Source of the DNA: Magnetococcales bacterium
Lineage (GTDB): Bacteria > Pseudomonadota > Magnetococcia > Magnetococcales > Magnetaquicoccaceae
DNA: 49,709 bases
Direction: 5' to 3'
Assembly: GCA_015234115.1 (NCBI GenBank)
Contig: JADFWP010000018.1
Span: 1-49,709, forward strand
The position numbers and the translations under genes are program-made. This document shows positions 35,535 to 49,553 of the stretch, piece after piece (position 1 is the stretch's first letter; the number at the start of each line of letters is the position of its first letter). The notes under the pieces are model-generated. The model saw nothing but the letters and a program-made list of their open reading frames with translations, was not told the origin of the DNA and did no database searches.

Positions 35535-37838
35535 ATGAAGTCCCTGGCTGCGCTCATCTCGTTGGTCATCCTGCTGTTCCTTCACCCGGCCCAGGCGGCC
35601 CTGACCGCAAACAACGTGTTCCACGACGCTACCTGGAGCGGCCACGGACGAAAAAGTTACCGGATACCCACCAACGCCTTCAACAATTCGGACGGGGGTC
35701 CGCTGACCTTCTCGGCCACACAAAGCAACGGCCTGCCTCTGCCCCCCTGGCTCCAGTGCGATGCGAAAACCGGCTGGCTCGCAGGCAATCCCCCGGATGG
35801 AACCCAACCCCTCACGCTGCGGATCACGGCCAGCAACAACGCCGGGGAGCGCGCAAACGCCACCTTCAAAATCTTCTTCAACGCCACCAACGATGCCCCG
35901 GTCGCAACCCGCAACATTCCCGACCAGAACTGGACCGGTCCGGACACCAAACGATTTACCGTTCCAGCCGACACCTTTTCTGATAACGATGGGGATGCTT
36001 TGACCTTCACCGCCACACAGGAAAACGGTGCCCCTCTCCCGACCTGGCTGCAATTCAACCCCGGAACAAAAACCTTTTCGGGCAATCCCCCTGCCGGAGC
36101 CTCCCCCCTCCGCTTGCGGGTCACGGCCAATGATGGTCACAACGGATCCGCAAACAAAACTTTTATTATCGAATCCAACAACACCAACGATCCGCCAACA
36201 TTGCAGGCCAATCCTGTTGACAGCATCCAATGGAATCATCCCGGACATCAGGCCTTCCAGTTCCCGCACAACCTGTTTGCCGATAACGATCAAAATCCCC
36301 TGAACTATTCGGTGGCGCAGCAGAACGGTGCTCCTTTGCCAGACTGGCTGATCTTCTCAAGCAGCCGACTGACCCTTTCCGGCAACCCCCCTGCGGCCCT
36401 TTCCAACCTTCCTCTGACCATCACGGCCCGGGACACCCTTGGCGATGCGACCGCGCACCCCTTTACACTGATCTTGGGCAATACCAACGATGCGCCCATC
36501 GCCACCCCCCTCCCCGTCCAGCCAACCTGGACGCCCAACGTTCGCAACACCTTCCAACTGCCTGCCACAACGTTCCAGGATCCGGACCGGGATGCACTGA
36601 CCCTGACCGCCCGGATGGCCAACGGGGAACCGCTCCCGGCATGGTTGCAATTTTCATCCGCCTCCCGGACCTTCTCCGGCATACCGCCAGCAGACAGCTC
36701 CGCGCTGACCCTGGAGGTCCGCGCCAGCGACGGCCACGCAGGCACCGCAAGCGTCCAGGTCACGCTCAACATCAATCATCCACCGGTCGCCACCGCAGAT
36801 TCCCTGACCATCACCGGCAACCATCCCATCAGCGACACGTTGCACGCCCAGGACCAGGATGGCGACCCGCTGACCTATCGCCTGATCACCAATGGTTCCA
36901 AAGGGACCGCGACCATCACCAACCCCAGTACCGGGGCCTTCACCTATACCCCCACCGAAAACAACGGCACCGACCGTTTCACCTTTCAAGTGAATGACGG
37001 CACCCAGGATTCCAATATCGCCACGGTGACCGTCAACCTCCCGGTTCCCAACACCGCGCCCGTGGCCAGCAACAGCACCTTGACCGTCACACACAACGCG
37101 CCAGCCACCGGCACCTTGATCGCCAGCGATGCGGAGCACGACGCCCTGACCTTCCAGATCACCGACAATGGTGCCAAGGGCAACGCCATCCTCACCGACA
37201 GCGCAACCGGCGCCTTTCGTTACACCCCCAATGCCGACGCCTCGGGAATCGACCGCTTCGCATTCCAGGTCAATGACGGCAAAACCAATTCCAACACCGC
37301 GACCATCACCATCACCATCGACGCCACCGCCGGATACCCGGCGCCAGTTCCCAGAAGCGGACAAACCGTCAGCTACCGGTCGCGGGACGATGGCGCGCTG
37401 CGCAAAGGAGTGGCCTGGCCCGTGCCGCGTTTCACGGACAACGACGATGGTACGGTCACCGACCATCTGACACGGCTGGTCTGGATGAAAAACACCAACT
37501 GCTGGGGCAACCTGACCTGGGCAGAGGCCTTGACGAAAATCGACCTCCTGAATGGCCGATCCACCCGCTGCATCGGCTATACGGGCACCCACACCGACTG
37601 GCGGTTGCCCAACTTCAAGGAGTTGGAATCCCTGACCGATCCCGGACAACGCTCCCTGGCGTCGTTGCCCTCCGGTCATCCCTTCCTGTTGGTCCAATCA
37701 GGATGGTACTGGTCTGCCACCACCCATGCCGCAACCCCTGCCAATGCCTGGGTGACAGGTTTCGCAGAGGGCCATTTCTTCGGCAATCTCCCCAAAACGA
37801 CTGCCGGCTCTGTCTGGCCGGTGCGGAGCGGACCATGA
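35535..37838 (+). CDS. Secreted Ig-repeat protein with C-terminal DUF1566 (lectin-like) domain
   Basis: A 767-residue exported protein: signal peptide (MKSLAALISLVILLFLHPAQA), four putative Ig/cadherin-like repeats of about 97 residues (DxxLTFxA...NGxPLPxWLxF...FSGNPP...), two cadherin/VCBS-like modules (413-600), and a DUF1566 domain from about 601 (GLVWMKN-like core, DWRLPNFKEL, YWSATTH, VWPVRSG). DUF1566 has a C-type-lectin-like fold. No membrane anchor or RTX signal is visible, so how it is held at the surface is unknown. Start at the ATG at 35535, after GAGGAG. Followed 47 bp later by a second DUF1566 gene that resembles its own C-terminal domain. Confidence 0.85.
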   Translation: MKSLAALISLVILLFLHPAQAALTANNVFHDATWSGHGRKSYRIPTNAFNNSDGGPLTFSATQSNGLPLPPWLQCDAKTGWLAGNPPDGTQPLTLRITASNNAGERANATFKIFFNATNDAPVATRNIPDQNWTGPDTKRFTVPADTFSDNDGDALTFTATQENGAPLPTWLQFNPGTKTFSGNPPAGASPLRLRVTANDGHNGSANKTFIIESNNTNDPPTLQANPVDSIQWNHPGHQAFQFPHNLFADNDQNPLNYSVAQQNGAPLPDWLIFSSSRLTLSGNPPAALSNLPLTITARDTLGDATAHPFTLILGNTNDAPIATPLPVQPTWTPNVRNTFQLPATTFQDPDRDALTLTARMANGEPLPAWLQFSSASRTFSGIPPADSSALTLEVRASDGHAGTASVQVTLNINHPPVATADSLTITGNHPISDTLHAQDQDGDPLTYRLITNGSKGTATITNPSTGAFTYTPTENNGTDRFTFQVNDGTQDSNIATVTVNLPVPNTAPVASNSTLTVTHNAPATGTLIASDAEHDALTFQITDNGAKGNAILTDSATGAFRYTPNADASGIDRFAFQVNDGKTNSNTATITITIDATAGYPAPVPRSGQTVSYRSRDDGALRKGVAWPVPRFTDNDDGTVTDHLTRLVWMKNTNCWGNLTWAEALTKIDLLNGRSTRCIGYTGTHTDWRLPNFKELESLTDPGQRSLASLPSGHPFLLVQSGWYWSATTHAATPANAWVTGFAEGHFFGNLPKTTAGSVWPVRSGP

Positions 37839-37885
37839 AATCCCAAGGCATGCATCATCCGACCACCTTGACAAGGAGAACCGGC

Positions 37886-38491
37886 ATGAATCCATCTCTT
37901 TACCAGCGCGGCGCACGGCTTGCCATGCTCATCCTGTTCGTGCTCGGAGCGTTTTTCCCTTTCCAGGCGGGCCAAGCCGACGACCTCCTGGCACCACTCC
38001 CGCGTACCGGCCAAACCGTGTCATCCCGCAGCGGGGATGATGGCGACCTCGAAAAAGGCGTTGCCTGGCCTGCACCGCGTTTCCTGGATCTGGGCAATGG
38101 AACGGTCCGCGATCAATTGACGGGACTGGTCTGGATCAAACACCCCGATTGTTTCCAGGCACAAAACTGGTTCCAGGCCATGGATAGCGTGATCAATCTG
38201 AACTCGGGGTTGATCGGTTGCACGGACTACATCCGCTCAAGCCATCAGGATTGGCGTCTGCCCAATCGCAAAGAGTTGCTGAGCCTGATCGACTTCAGCC
38301 GCAGCGGGCCTGCCCTGCCAGCGGGCCATCCGTTCTCAACGAACCGATCCGATGATTATTACTGGTCATCAACCACATACAGATCCGATACCGTGTACGC
38401 ATGGGTGATCGATCTCTCCACAGGATTAATCAACCGCCACAATAAAGGAACCCTGCCACACGCCATCTGGCCGGTACGCGGCGGACAATAA
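37886..38491 (+). CDS. Secreted single-domain DUF1566 protein
   Basis: A 201-residue protein: N-terminal signal/hydrophobic segment (about 10-30, ending near GQADD), then one DUF1566 domain with GTVRDQLTGLVWIK, DWRLPNRKELLSLID, YYWSSTTY and a closing IWPVRGGQ. Two Cys pairs suggest disulfides. It is close in sequence to the C-terminal domain of the gene just upstream (both share PRTGQTVSxRSxDDG...KGVAWP), so the pair probably arose by domain duplication. Start at the ATG at 37886 behind AAGGAGAACCGGC. Confidence 0.85.
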   Translation: MNPSLYQRGARLAMLILFVLGAFFPFQAGQADDLLAPLPRTGQTVSSRSGDDGDLEKGVAWPAPRFLDLGNGTVRDQLTGLVWIKHPDCFQAQNWFQAMDSVINLNSGLIGCTDYIRSSHQDWRLPNRKELLSLIDFSRSGPALPAGHPFSTNRSDDYYWSSTTYRSDTVYAWVIDLSTGLINRHNKGTLPHAIWPVRGGQ

Positions 38492-47007: not shown

Positions 47008-47178
47008 AACCTCCGATCCAATCCCCCCCGGTCAGCCCCCACTGCGGCGCAATGCGGTACGACCGGACGCAATCCAGAGATCATGCAGGATCAAAACACT
47101 TCAGACCTTTATTCCACACGTCGCACAGGGTATTATGGCTGGCGTCATCATCCACCCCTGCCCACGGAGCCATCCGCC

Positions 47179-49422
47179 ATGTTCCAAAGAACCGTTGCGA
47201 GGGCTTTTTTTTCATCCCTGCTTGCAGTCGCCGCGTTCGATGCGCAAGCGGCGGCGCCGACCTGCGCCAATTCGATTCCTGATCAGACGTGGAGCGGGAG
47301 TGGCCCAAAAACGCTGCAAATTCGAGATACCACGTTTCTCGATGCCGATTTCGATGATCTGACCTTCACGGCCAAGCGGTTGACCGGTCTCGCCTTGCCC
47401 GCCTGGTTGAGCTTCAACGCCACCACGCTGACCCTCTCTGGAAATCCTCCGGTTGGAGAGGCGAAACTTTCATTAAAGCTTACCGCCAACGACGGTCACG
47501 ATGGCACGGCGGTTTGCGCCTTCTCTTTGAACCTCTCCAACGTCAACGACGCTCCCACGCTGGCCACGCCGCTTGTGGATCAAAGCTGGAGTCGCGGTTC
47601 GGCCCAGAGTTTCCAGATTCCGGCCACAGCCTTTACCGATGCGGATGGGGATGCTTTGACCTATTCTGCCACCCTGGACGATGGTTCGGCGTTGCCTTCC
47701 TGGCTCACCTTTGCCCCCGCCACCCGGACCTTGAGCGGCACGCCGCCGACCGGGGCGAGTTCGATGATCATCAAGATCACGGCCAGCGATGGTCAATCGG
47801 GTACGGCTTCGGATCAATTCATTTTGTCTTTCACGACCGCCGCCAATCGCGCACCGACCGTGGCCAGTCCGATTGCGGATCGCACCTGGTCGGGGAGTGG
47901 GAGCAAGAGTTTCCGGGTGCCGATTGGCACCTTTGCGGATCGTGACGGGGATACGCTCACCTATTCTGCCACCTTGTCGGATGGATCAGCCTTGCCTTCG
48001 TGGTTGCGTTTTTCACGGACGACGCGCCAGTTCTCCGGCAATCCGCCAAGCGGCCTTACTTCGTTGCGGGTGAAGGTGCGGGCCAGCGATGGCAAGGGTG
48101 GGTCGGCGTCGGATAGTTTTGTTTTGTCGTTCTCGAACACCAATGATGCGCCAACGGTTGCTACGACCATTGCGGACCAAAGCTGGAGTGGTCGTTTCCA
48201 GGTTCCAGCCAGCACATTTTCTGATGGGGACGGGAACAGCCTCACCTACTCGGCGCGTCTTGCCGATGGTTCGGCACTTCCCTCGTGGTTGAGCTTTTCG
48301 CCTGCGACGCGGACTTTTTCCGGCACGGCGCCCTCTTCCGGGGCGGATCTGGAGGTGCGGGTGACGGCGAGCGATGGTCGTGGTGGGAACAACAGCACGA
48401 CGTTCCGGTTGGCTGCGGAGGGGACAAATCAGGCCCCTGTCGCCTCAAACGGGACGTTGACGGTAAGCCGAGATACAGCCGGGACTGGGACGTTGCGCGC
48501 GACGGATGCGGATGCCGAGGATGCCCTGATTTATCGGGTTGTGACCAACGGCACGAAGGGAACCGCCACCATCACCAACGCTTCGACCGGGGAATATCGC
48601 TATACGCCGAACTCCGGAGCTACGGGCACTGACACCTTTACATTCAAGGCCAATGACGGGACGGTGGATTCCAGTCTGGCAACGATCACGGTGACGATCA
48701 ACGCGGTGGCGCAGGAGTTGACCAATACGCTGGGGATGACCTTCAAGCGGATTCCATCAGGCACCTTCACGATGGGTGCGTCATCGGATGATCTGAACAC
48801 GGATTCATGGTTCAGTCATGCAAGACCACAACATCAGGTGACGATCAGTCGTGCTTTTTACATGCAGACGACGGAGATCACGCAGGGTCAGTGGCGTGAG
48901 GTGATGGGAAGCAATCCATCGTATTTTTCAAGTTGCGGGGATACTTGCCCTGTGGAACAGGTCTCCTGGAATGATCTTCAGGATTTCATCTCCCGCTTGA
49001 ATTCCCGTGGTGAGGGTACCTATCGTTTGCCGACCGAGGCGGAATGGGAGTATGCAGCGCGTGCCGGGACGACGACGGCGTATTCGTTCGGGTCGAGTGA
49101 CAGCAATATTAACCAATATGCATGGTCATATAGCAACTCATCCAGCACGACACATCCGGTGGCGCAAAAACTGCCGAACGCGTGGGGTTTGTATGACATG
49201 CACGGCAATGTTTGGGAGTGGGTGGCGGATTATTGGTCCGATTCTTTCACCTCTTCGGCGGTGACAGACCCGCAAGGGCCAAGTTCGGGCTCCGGCCGGG
49301 TCATTCGGGGCGGCGGCTGGGGCAGCGACCCGGTCTACCTCCGCTCCGCGTTTCGCGGCGACTACGACCCGGGCTATCGCAACCTCGACTTCGGCGCCCG
49401 CGTTCTGAGGACTAGCCCTTGA
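47179..49422 (+). CDS. Secreted Ig-repeat protein with C-terminal FGE/C-type-lectin domain and possible variable region
   Basis: A 747-residue exported protein: signal peptide (MFQRTVARAFFSSLLAVAAFDAQA), four Ig/cadherin-like repeats (about 33-417) of the same type as in the 35.5 kb protein, one cadherin/VCBS-like module (418-513), and an FGE-sulfatase domain from about 515 (GMTFKRIPSGTFTMGA, YRLPTEAEWEYAARAG, MHGNVWEWV). The region that holds the catalytic Cys in true formylglycine-generating enzymes has none, so it should bind rather than catalyse. The last 35 codons (RGGGW...LRSA...FGARV) are GC-richer and look like a retroelement-diversified segment. Start at the ATG at 47179 with GGAG nine bases upstream. 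Confidence 0.85.
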   Translation: MFQRTVARAFFSSLLAVAAFDAQAAAPTCANSIPDQTWSGSGPKTLQIRDTTFLDADFDDLTFTAKRLTGLALPAWLSFNATTLTLSGNPPVGEAKLSLKLTANDGHDGTAVCAFSLNLSNVNDAPTLATPLVDQSWSRGSAQSFQIPATAFTDADGDALTYSATLDDGSALPSWLTFAPATRTLSGTPPTGASSMIIKITASDGQSGTASDQFILSFTTAANRAPTVASPIADRTWSGSGSKSFRVPIGTFADRDGDTLTYSATLSDGSALPSWLRFSRTTRQFSGNPPSGLTSLRVKVRASDGKGGSASDSFVLSFSNTNDAPTVATTIADQSWSGRFQVPASTFSDGDGNSLTYSARLADGSALPSWLSFSPATRTFSGTAPSSGADLEVRVTASDGRGGNNSTTFRLAAEGTNQAPVASNGTLTVSRDTAGTGTLRATDADAEDALIYRVVTNGTKGTATITNASTGEYRYTPNSGATGTDTFTFKANDGTVDSSLATITVTINAVAQELTNTLGMTFKRIPSGTFTMGASSDDLNTDSWFSHARPQHQVTISRAFYMQTTEITQGQWREVMGSNPSYFSSCGDTCPVEQVSWNDLQDFISRLNSRGEGTYRLPTEAEWEYAARAGTTTAYSFGSSDSNINQYAWSYSNSSSTTHPVAQKLPNAWGLYDMHGNVWEWVADYWSDSFTSSAVTDPQGPSSGSGRVIRGGGWGSDPVYLRSAFRGDYDPGYRNLDFGARVLRTSP
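49306..49410 (+). other. Candidate variable region (VR) of a diversity-generating retroelement
   Basis: In-frame segment RGGGW-GSDP-VYLRSA-FRGDYDPGYRNLDFGARV. At every position where typical FGE-type template repeats carry Asn (AAY), the codon here is NNC or NNT (GGC, AGC, GAC, GTC, TAC, TTT, GGC, GAC, TAC, GAC, TAT, AAC, CTC, GAC, TTC), as adenine mutagenesis would leave. Framework residues (R, P, LRSA) are unchanged. No template repeat or reverse transcriptase is in the window. Confidence 0.45.
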
Positions 49423-49502: not shown

Positions 49503-49553
49503 GGTCGGCGAGAGGGCGGCCCGCGAAGCGGAAGCGCCGCCCGAGAGCCGACC
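49503..49553. terminator. Long GC-rich hairpin between convergent genes
   Basis: Arms GGTCGGC-GAGA-GGGCGGC (49503-49520) and GCCGCCC-GAGA-GCCGACC (49536-49553). The GAGA/GAGA internal loop could close by tandem sheared G-A pairs. The apical part contains CCGC-GAA-GCGG. It lies between the FGE-fold gene and the convergent DUF4351 gene, so a bidirectional terminator is likely, but no T-run follows. Confidence 0.55.

Follow-up and report, generated by a model that had tools for sequence, protein, structure and literature searches.

A very probable orphan variable region of a diversity-generating retroelement in an Ig-stalked FGE-type protein of a Magnetococcales bacterium

The target gene, its product and its neighbourhood

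The whole stretch of 49,709 nucleotides analysed here, hereafter the window, corresponds to contig C71 of a MAG from a Magnetococcales bacterium (3,310,492 bases in 161 contigs, 76.94% complete, 2.76% contaminated). Close to its right end, the plus strand carries a gene (47179..49422, from ORF and Pfam analysis) coding for a secreted-type protein with Ig repeats and an FGE head of the C-lectin type, which is very probably the target of a diversity-generating retroelement (DGR). The open reading frame begins further upstream (47083-49422, 779 aa), and position 47179 is the likely start, judging from a homologous stub in G012, a genome of the same family and another genus, which aligns from its own Met with 125 of 174 residues (72%) identical. 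All features of the product lie on the plus strand. A probable Sec signal peptide (MFQRTVARAFFSSLLAVAAFDAQAAA, 47179..47256), recognised by eye from the translation, is followed by a stalk of four He_PIG Ig-type repeats (47260..48402, outer ends approximate; Pfam PF05345, four stretches, E 1.2e-56), a Big_9 or cadherin-like Ig domain (48427..48696; PF17963, residues 449-538 of P0001), and an FGE-sulfatase domain, i.e., the head with the C-lectin fold that bears the variable region (48748..49410; PF03781, E 5.3e-45, residues 556-776 of P0001). The Ig-repeat FGE-fold protein proposed by an earlier sequence-only reading of this DNA was thus recovered by Pfam in all its parts.

The best match by sequence of the FGE head in the PDB is 2y3c, the variable protein 1 of Treponema denticola (E 5.8e-37), with the C-terminal segments of both proteins aligned, while FGE enzymes and PvdO rank below in the same list. 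By homology, the head would be a binding domain of the C-lectin type, presumably displayed at the surface towards a ligand, and the variable region occupies the 3' end of the gene that codes for this fold, as seen from both the Pfam assignment and the match to 2y3c. FGE domains form a multi-copy family in the own genome, with 17 matches to that of the window, and at least one match is present in 56 of the 61 genomes of a wider set. Among at least 80 loci listed from a wider contig collection, FGE relatives do not exceed 59% identity. A plasmid search with the whole protein returned 496 records, every match being below 60% identity, and in the best 10 of these 496 mainly the Ig part was aligned. 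Further copies of DNA matching both the Ig and FGE parts are present elsewhere in the own genome, as well as in two genomes of the same genus, G003 and G009.

With regard to the neighbourhood, six of the eight upstream ORFs scanned are chemosensory (response regulator, CheA-like, CheW, MCP, CheB and RR-SpoIIE), in agreement with the chemosensory operon described from the sequence, and the other two comprise one ORF without match and one with an Lcl_C domain. No functional tie between the operon and the target gene was found here. The C-terminal codons of the Lcl_C protein (37703-38491) display no NNY bias by eye; Lcl_C, the former DUF1566, is a family that also serves as a DGR target head. The sequence-only reading considered an Ig-repeat target next to such an operon unusual; the operon stands, but the rarity of the Ig part is weakened, since DNA matching the gene recurs in G003 and G009 and Ig-like domains in DGR proteins are already in print (PMC4159848, PMC8144416).

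The variable region compared with template repeats of relatives

The variable region (VR) was delimited by alignment to the template repeat (TR) of G012, located on contig C103. Ungapped homology on the plus strand extends over 49288..49409, with a sharp 5' edge at 49288 and a 3' edge fading past 49409. The segment 49306..49410, earlier proposed as VR, was therefore correctly located, but its start was not, as two mutated codons (GGC at 49294 and ATT at 49303) had been missed. Likewise, the VR lies near the end of the gene, but the stop codon does not follow at once, the ORF ending 12 nt after the segment first named, i.e., after three more codons and the stop.

Aligned in register and without gaps over 105 nt, the VR and the G012 TR differ by 24 mismatches, 20 of which fall on a template A. 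Counted by template base, mismatches affect 20 of 31 A, none of 36 C, none of 25 G and 4 of 13 T (hypergeometric p 3.3e-10; p values are uncorrected throughout), and none of the 11 A's of the VR stretch is a non-A base in the TR. The other TRs available give similar proportions of mismatches at A (19/28 for G018, 20/28 for G030, 21/30 for G008 and 21/33 for G004; p from 3.2e-8 to 5.2e-7), all five templates compared originating from genomes other than that of the window. Those of G004 and G008, which are of the same genus, fit the VR worse than that of G012, of the same family but another genus, and the window is also separated from the G012 TR by three differences in and just past the 3' tail. 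On these grounds, the proposal of a DGR variable region is supported by adenine-specific mismatches against TRs of relatives. As a separate observation, two template types were distinguished by their ends, GARLL in G012 and GFRLA or GFRLS in G004, G008, G018 and G030, which do not follow genus lines; the window VR ends in GARVL, closest to the G012 type, though G004 and G008 are nearer relatives.

The 14 Asn codons (AAY) of the template are contained in 49294..49392 of the plus strand, and all 14 read NNY in the window. This bears out the varied NNY residues announced from the sequence, except that the Val residue (GTC) belongs to the template backbone and is not varied; the conserved Leu-Arg-Ser-Ala is part of this backbone, as expected. 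In the 705 codons preceding the VR, 54.5% are of the NNY type, so that 14 out of 14 would arise by chance with a probability of about 2e-4, and the early caveat that C-ending codons are common here was justified. Since 11 to 14 of the 14 codons are NNY in many other FGE C-termini as well, the NNY count alone was rejected as evidence for a VR; unlike NNY content, the adenine bias against the TR is decisive. The segment first named is GC-richer than the FGE domain before it (0.733 versus 0.538), as had been noticed, and the highest value of any earlier 105-nt stretch of the gene is 0.705. The VR ends in a GC-rich 3' tail (49393..49409, plus strand; GGCGCCCGCGTTCTGAG, template GGCGCCCGCCTGCTGAG), aligned where known DGRs have their IMH; by analogy with BPP-1, this tail presumably plays the part of a homing signal. 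A hairpin is also present at 49503-49553, about 80 nt past the stop codon (z -4.1 against shuffles for an 81-nt stretch); owing to this distance and to the weaker value of the C126 stretch folded for comparison (z -1.8), we do not claim it as a homing signal.

To place these values, 154 distinct FGE C-termini parsed by script from the fetched loci were scored against the G012 TR, a set which is not a neutral sample, the loci having been fetched as relatives and several being DGR targets themselves. Within it, the window ranks second by adenine bias, after a gene of G025, takes first place when identity is counted over the non-A sites (73/77), and is followed in the ranking by the G008 target, the C126 paralogue described below and three G003 genes. 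The 11 other FGE paralogues of the own genome that were parsed have backbone identities of 0.47-0.77, four of the 17 own-genome matches not being parsed for this control.

The nearest paralogue in the own genome (C126:194-904) shares 80% protein identity with the window protein, and the DNA is 83% identical over 1003 bases, gene included. Its VR, at about C126:200-330, is one codon shorter. Differences between the two genes at codon positions 1, 2 and 3 number 13, 9 and 3 in the 35 codons of the VR, versus 23, 19 and 58 in 193 codons of the upstream FGE part. The comparison was made with five genes of the same genus, namely, the C126 paralogue, three G003 orthologues and one G009 orthologue. 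Depending on the gene, 19-23 of 29-31 template-A sites differ from the window, against 5-9 of 76-77 other sites and 17-25% of the bases upstream. Upstream, the third position differs in 58-83 of 185-197 codons, against 3-5 of 35-36 in the VR (p 0.0045 to 0.0004 for the contrast). A backbone kept alike in nucleotides while the rest of the gene diverged is what repeated copying from a common kind of template predicts. This A-site-limited pattern is absent from the own-genome paralogues C11, C117:37276 and C135, in which 25, 17 and 31 of the 77 non-A sites differ. C117:21264, which gives the longest match among the Ig/FGE paralogues of the own genome, has 65% backbone identity and carries GAA, CGA and ATA codons in this region. 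The window and C126 VRs are separated by six non-A differences and a one-codon indel, and hence the last copying was not recent, or different templates were involved.

In other respects, Pfam reveals only the FGE domain in the open frame of C126, which has neither signal peptide nor He_PIG repeats and nevertheless ends in a VR of the same type (L002, 191-1096, minus strand). This contig stops about 190 bp past the stop codon, in sequence common with the end of the window.

DGR machinery in the own genome and in related genomes

The sequence-only reading found no RT, Avd or TR in the window, and profile and TR searches of the contig likewise returned no RVT_1, Avd or TR. In the own assembly (3.31 Mb, 77% complete), no TR was detected by pattern or by a DNA search with the G012 TR: pattern and DNA matches were only VRs or another FGE paralogue, the G012 TR search matching C117:37276 alone. 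Avd gave no match in the own genome (G000), and no intact DGR RT was found in this assembly. The single RVT_1 fragment, at the edge of contig C79, was discarded as a DGR RT, as it is 34-43% identical to five RTs of the QGxxxSP type from the order and 22-25% to the five matched of the DGR type. A search with the G008 RT uncovered a C-terminal stub of about 45 aa (45-53 aa, 64% identical) at C95:237-383 (L213 207-449). The roughly 200 bases ahead of it show no RT homology, and the 1.9 kb examined contains no TR-like stretch. The sole HRDC match is a 632-aa open frame with 32% identity, which by its size is like RecQ. Taken together, what remains in this 77%-complete assembly looks like a decayed DGR.

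The near-copy with adenine-only differences beside a DGR RT, envisaged by the sequence-only reading, was not found in the own assembly and has counterparts in relatives, as a near-copy in G012:C103 and as copies of lower backbone identity beside RTs in four genomes of the order. The order set comprises 48 genomes, own included, 30 of which possess an RVT_1 match (E <= 0.001). Twenty stretches were fetched around selected RT matches, and an adenine-bias scan over 23 RT loci, some overlapping, revealed TR/VR pairs in seven (L091, L092, L097, L099, L101, L102 and L103). A motif scan identified RTs with IGNLTSQ or IGALTSQ in the order, (I/V/L)GxxxSQ being described as characteristic of DGR RTs (PMC3521204). 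The window-type TR pattern occurs in five of the 48 genomes: it adjoins an RT in two members of the window's own genus, G004 and G008, and in G018 and G030, and is also present in G012. By DNA search with the G012 TR, 8 of 21 genomes were matched. In the viral collection, neither a match to the TR-type pattern nor a relative of the G008 RT was found. DGRs of another type were also noticed in the order (L097, L099, L101, L102 and L103, in G035, G042, G029 and G036), and L097, L099 and L101 have two TR/VR pairs each.

In the genus set of 11 genomes, which includes that of the window, near-full-length matches to the G008-type RT are confined to G004 and G008, and both combine an intact RT bearing IGNLTSQ with a TR. 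On G008:C154 (3.45 kb), an FGE target ending in its VR comes first, then an HRDC protein, Avd, the RT and the TR; Pfam confirmed RVT_1, bAvd and HRDC in this cassette, its Avd reaches 104.5 bits with the NCBIfam DGR-Avd model (cut-off 80), and its RT, aligned over 79% of the query, shares 39.5% identity with BPP-1 brt. In G004:C120, the motif-bearing RT is followed by the TR, and no Avd match was found in the G004 genome. G012:C103 harbours an intact TR, HRDC and Avd, then an RT that breaks off after 29 codons, where it meets the 5' part of an oppositely oriented Ig gene (L192, 1558-2251), a junction resulting either from a deletion or from a chimeric contig. Over 174 aa, this Ig stub shares 72% identity with the N-terminus of the window protein, and its position beside TR, HRDC and Avd physically links the protein family of the window to a DGR in a sister genus.

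G003 is 98% complete and possesses window-type VRs, yet no TR was detected in it by pattern or DNA search, the DNA matches being the known VRs, a VR fragment at C56:49887 and a chance-like match of 26 bases in C58. The C56 fragment (49887-49983, L230; HIDPVSLRSALRGYDDSGFRSCDPGARLLRTNP) is a further VR-like C-terminus, seen without the preceding RGG part about 3.5 kb from a VR-bearing gene on the same contig. On contig C6, G003 codes for an RT of 510 aa with IGNLTSQ, 33-40% identical to the DGR RTs of the order. We dismissed it as the source of the FGE-type VRs, as it has no TR-like match in the surrounding 9 kb and adjoins an Ig/Lcl_C gene. At this locus (L089, 973-4580), the RT immediately follows an Ig gene of 705 aa with a window-like stalk and an Lcl_C head, and past the RT comes another Lcl_C-like copy with 76% DNA identity. 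As a lead, the locus supports the idea of a stalk common to two kinds of head.

Origin of the variable region and its place among known systems

The adenine-specific substitutions, the TRs and RTs of relatives and the fold family assigned by sequence lead us to conclude that the C-terminal ~120 bp of the gene very probably represent the VR of a DGR target, which is orphan in the assembled genome. A template RNA resembling NRVNRGGSWNNNPVNLRSANRNNNDPGNRNNNIGAR would have been copied by a DGR reverse transcriptase that inserted random bases wherever the template has an adenine, and the resulting cDNA would have replaced the 3' end of the gene, presumably by homing. The C-lectin framework would thereby be kept while as many as 14 positions on the presumed ligand-binding face are re-drawn, which presumably changes what this secreted-type Ig-stalked protein binds.

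The cassette was either lost or resides in the missing quarter of the genome, acting in trans, and loss is slightly favoured. That the DGR disappeared after the last round of diversification, the VR being inherited since then in fixed form, has a chance that we put at about even or just above. The RT remnant in C95, reduced to about 45 aa of its C-terminus with some 200 bases devoid of RT homology ahead and no TR-like stretch in 1.9 kb, argues for such a loss, as do the RT of G012, cut after 29 codons and joined to an Ig gene, and the T. denticola isolates described with target remnants and without RT and TR (PMC4891356); on the other hand, 23% of the genome is missing, and the C95 stub may be a dead copy beside a live one. 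A DGR that is still active, with an intact RT, TR and Avd acting in trans from an unassembled or unbinned part of the genome or a plasmid, is a serious possibility to which we give somewhat less than an even chance. The MAG is only 77% complete, three relatives have their cassettes on contigs as short as 3.8 kb (G004), 3.5 kb (G008) and 4.1 kb (G012), so that such loci may assemble badly, and DGR targets best explained by activity in trans have been reported (PMC10907252). However, the cassette-bearing contigs of G030 (38.5 kb) and G032 (101.7 kb) are longer and indicate that bad assembly is not the rule, the RT stub inside contig C95 without the rest of the gene points to decay, six non-A sites distinguish the VR of C126 from that of the window gene, and G003, despite its 98% completeness, combines such VRs with the lack of a TR by pattern or DNA search.

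Apart from an orphan DGR target, strong diversifying selection on the binding face, acting through point mutations and without reverse transcription, would also produce an excess of changes at codon positions 1 and 2. We regard it as very unlikely, as it leaves unexplained the third positions better conserved than upstream, the concentration of changes on the AAY codons of an RT-adjacent template and the sharp start of homology at 49288. An ordinary FGE protein, taking its VR look from the RGGSW...RSA.R motif and a preference for C-ending codons, is barely credible: NNY is indeed frequent at these codons in FGE proteins, and the 11 other parsed own-genome segments have the motif at 47-77% backbone identity, but the adenine bias (p 3.3e-10) with zero mismatches at C or G, the 65% backbone identity and GAA/CGA/ATA codons of the C117:21264 paralogue, and the reversal of the codon-position pattern inside the VR all speak against it.

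The orphan target resembles several known systems. As in T. denticola TvpA (PDB 2y3c), the window protein has an FGE/C-lectin domain with an aligned C-terminal segment; for this species, the literature describes FGE targets, HRDC accessories, remote or remnant copies of the target and, in strains lacking RT and TR, target remnants (PMC4891356), the HRDC accessory beside the RT being shared with the G008 and G012 cassettes. Unlike TvpA, the window protein carries an N-terminal stalk of four He_PIG repeats and a Big_9 domain, and the cassettes of G008 and G012 also contain Avd. The G008 cassette can be likened to the BPP-1 DGR (brt, avd, mtd) by its RT, 39.5% identical to brt, and its Avd, which passes the DGR-Avd model, but the window target is chromosomal and of the secreted type instead of a phage tail protein, HRDC is present in the relatives, and in the own genome the target lies apart from the machinery, or the machinery is lost. 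The DGRs of Thiohalocapsa PB-PSB1, among which trans-acting and disrupted elements are reported, are alike in having several targets, some apart from an RT or TR, disrupted loci and C-lectin heads of the FGE type; they differ in that diversification was observed in natural populations and that the targets belong to conflict systems, not Ig stalks (PMC10907252). The same source names multicellular magnetotactic bacteria among DGR carriers.

With regard to the Ig part, Big_2 and Big_3 are described in DGR variable proteins (PMC4159848), and rare VRs once tied to Ig folds have been re-read as phage tail fibres (PMC8144416), which may or may not be the proteins of the former study. Such DGR proteins with Ig-like domains are comparable to the window protein as far as the VR lies elsewhere in the protein; the window protein differs by its He_PIG/Big_9 stalk combined with an FGE head and by its location next to a chemosensory operon. 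Cellular DGR targets in general are characterised by a signal peptide or membrane segment together with binding or adhesion domains (PMC8144416), and a secreted-type Ig-stalked protein with a re-drawn face would fit this picture. Earlier publications thus already cover FGE heads that are diversified, DGR variable domains accompanied by Ig-like ones, and targets devoid of machinery, and a name-based literature search found no DGR study of this order.

As a tentative and rather doubtful extension, the Ig-stalked adhesin family of the order might constitute a modular display with either an FGE or an Lcl_C head and a separate DGR for each of the two. Cassettes would have been repeatedly lost and regained, shared template types would re-impose one backbone across genera, and orphan VRs would be the record of past diversification. 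The window gene documents a DGR target without machinery in its assembly, and its VR can be recognised without the cognate TR, a TR from another genus of the family being sufficient. Together with the cassette-carrying sister genomes, it provides a series that could help to date when DGRs were gained, decayed or acted in trans.
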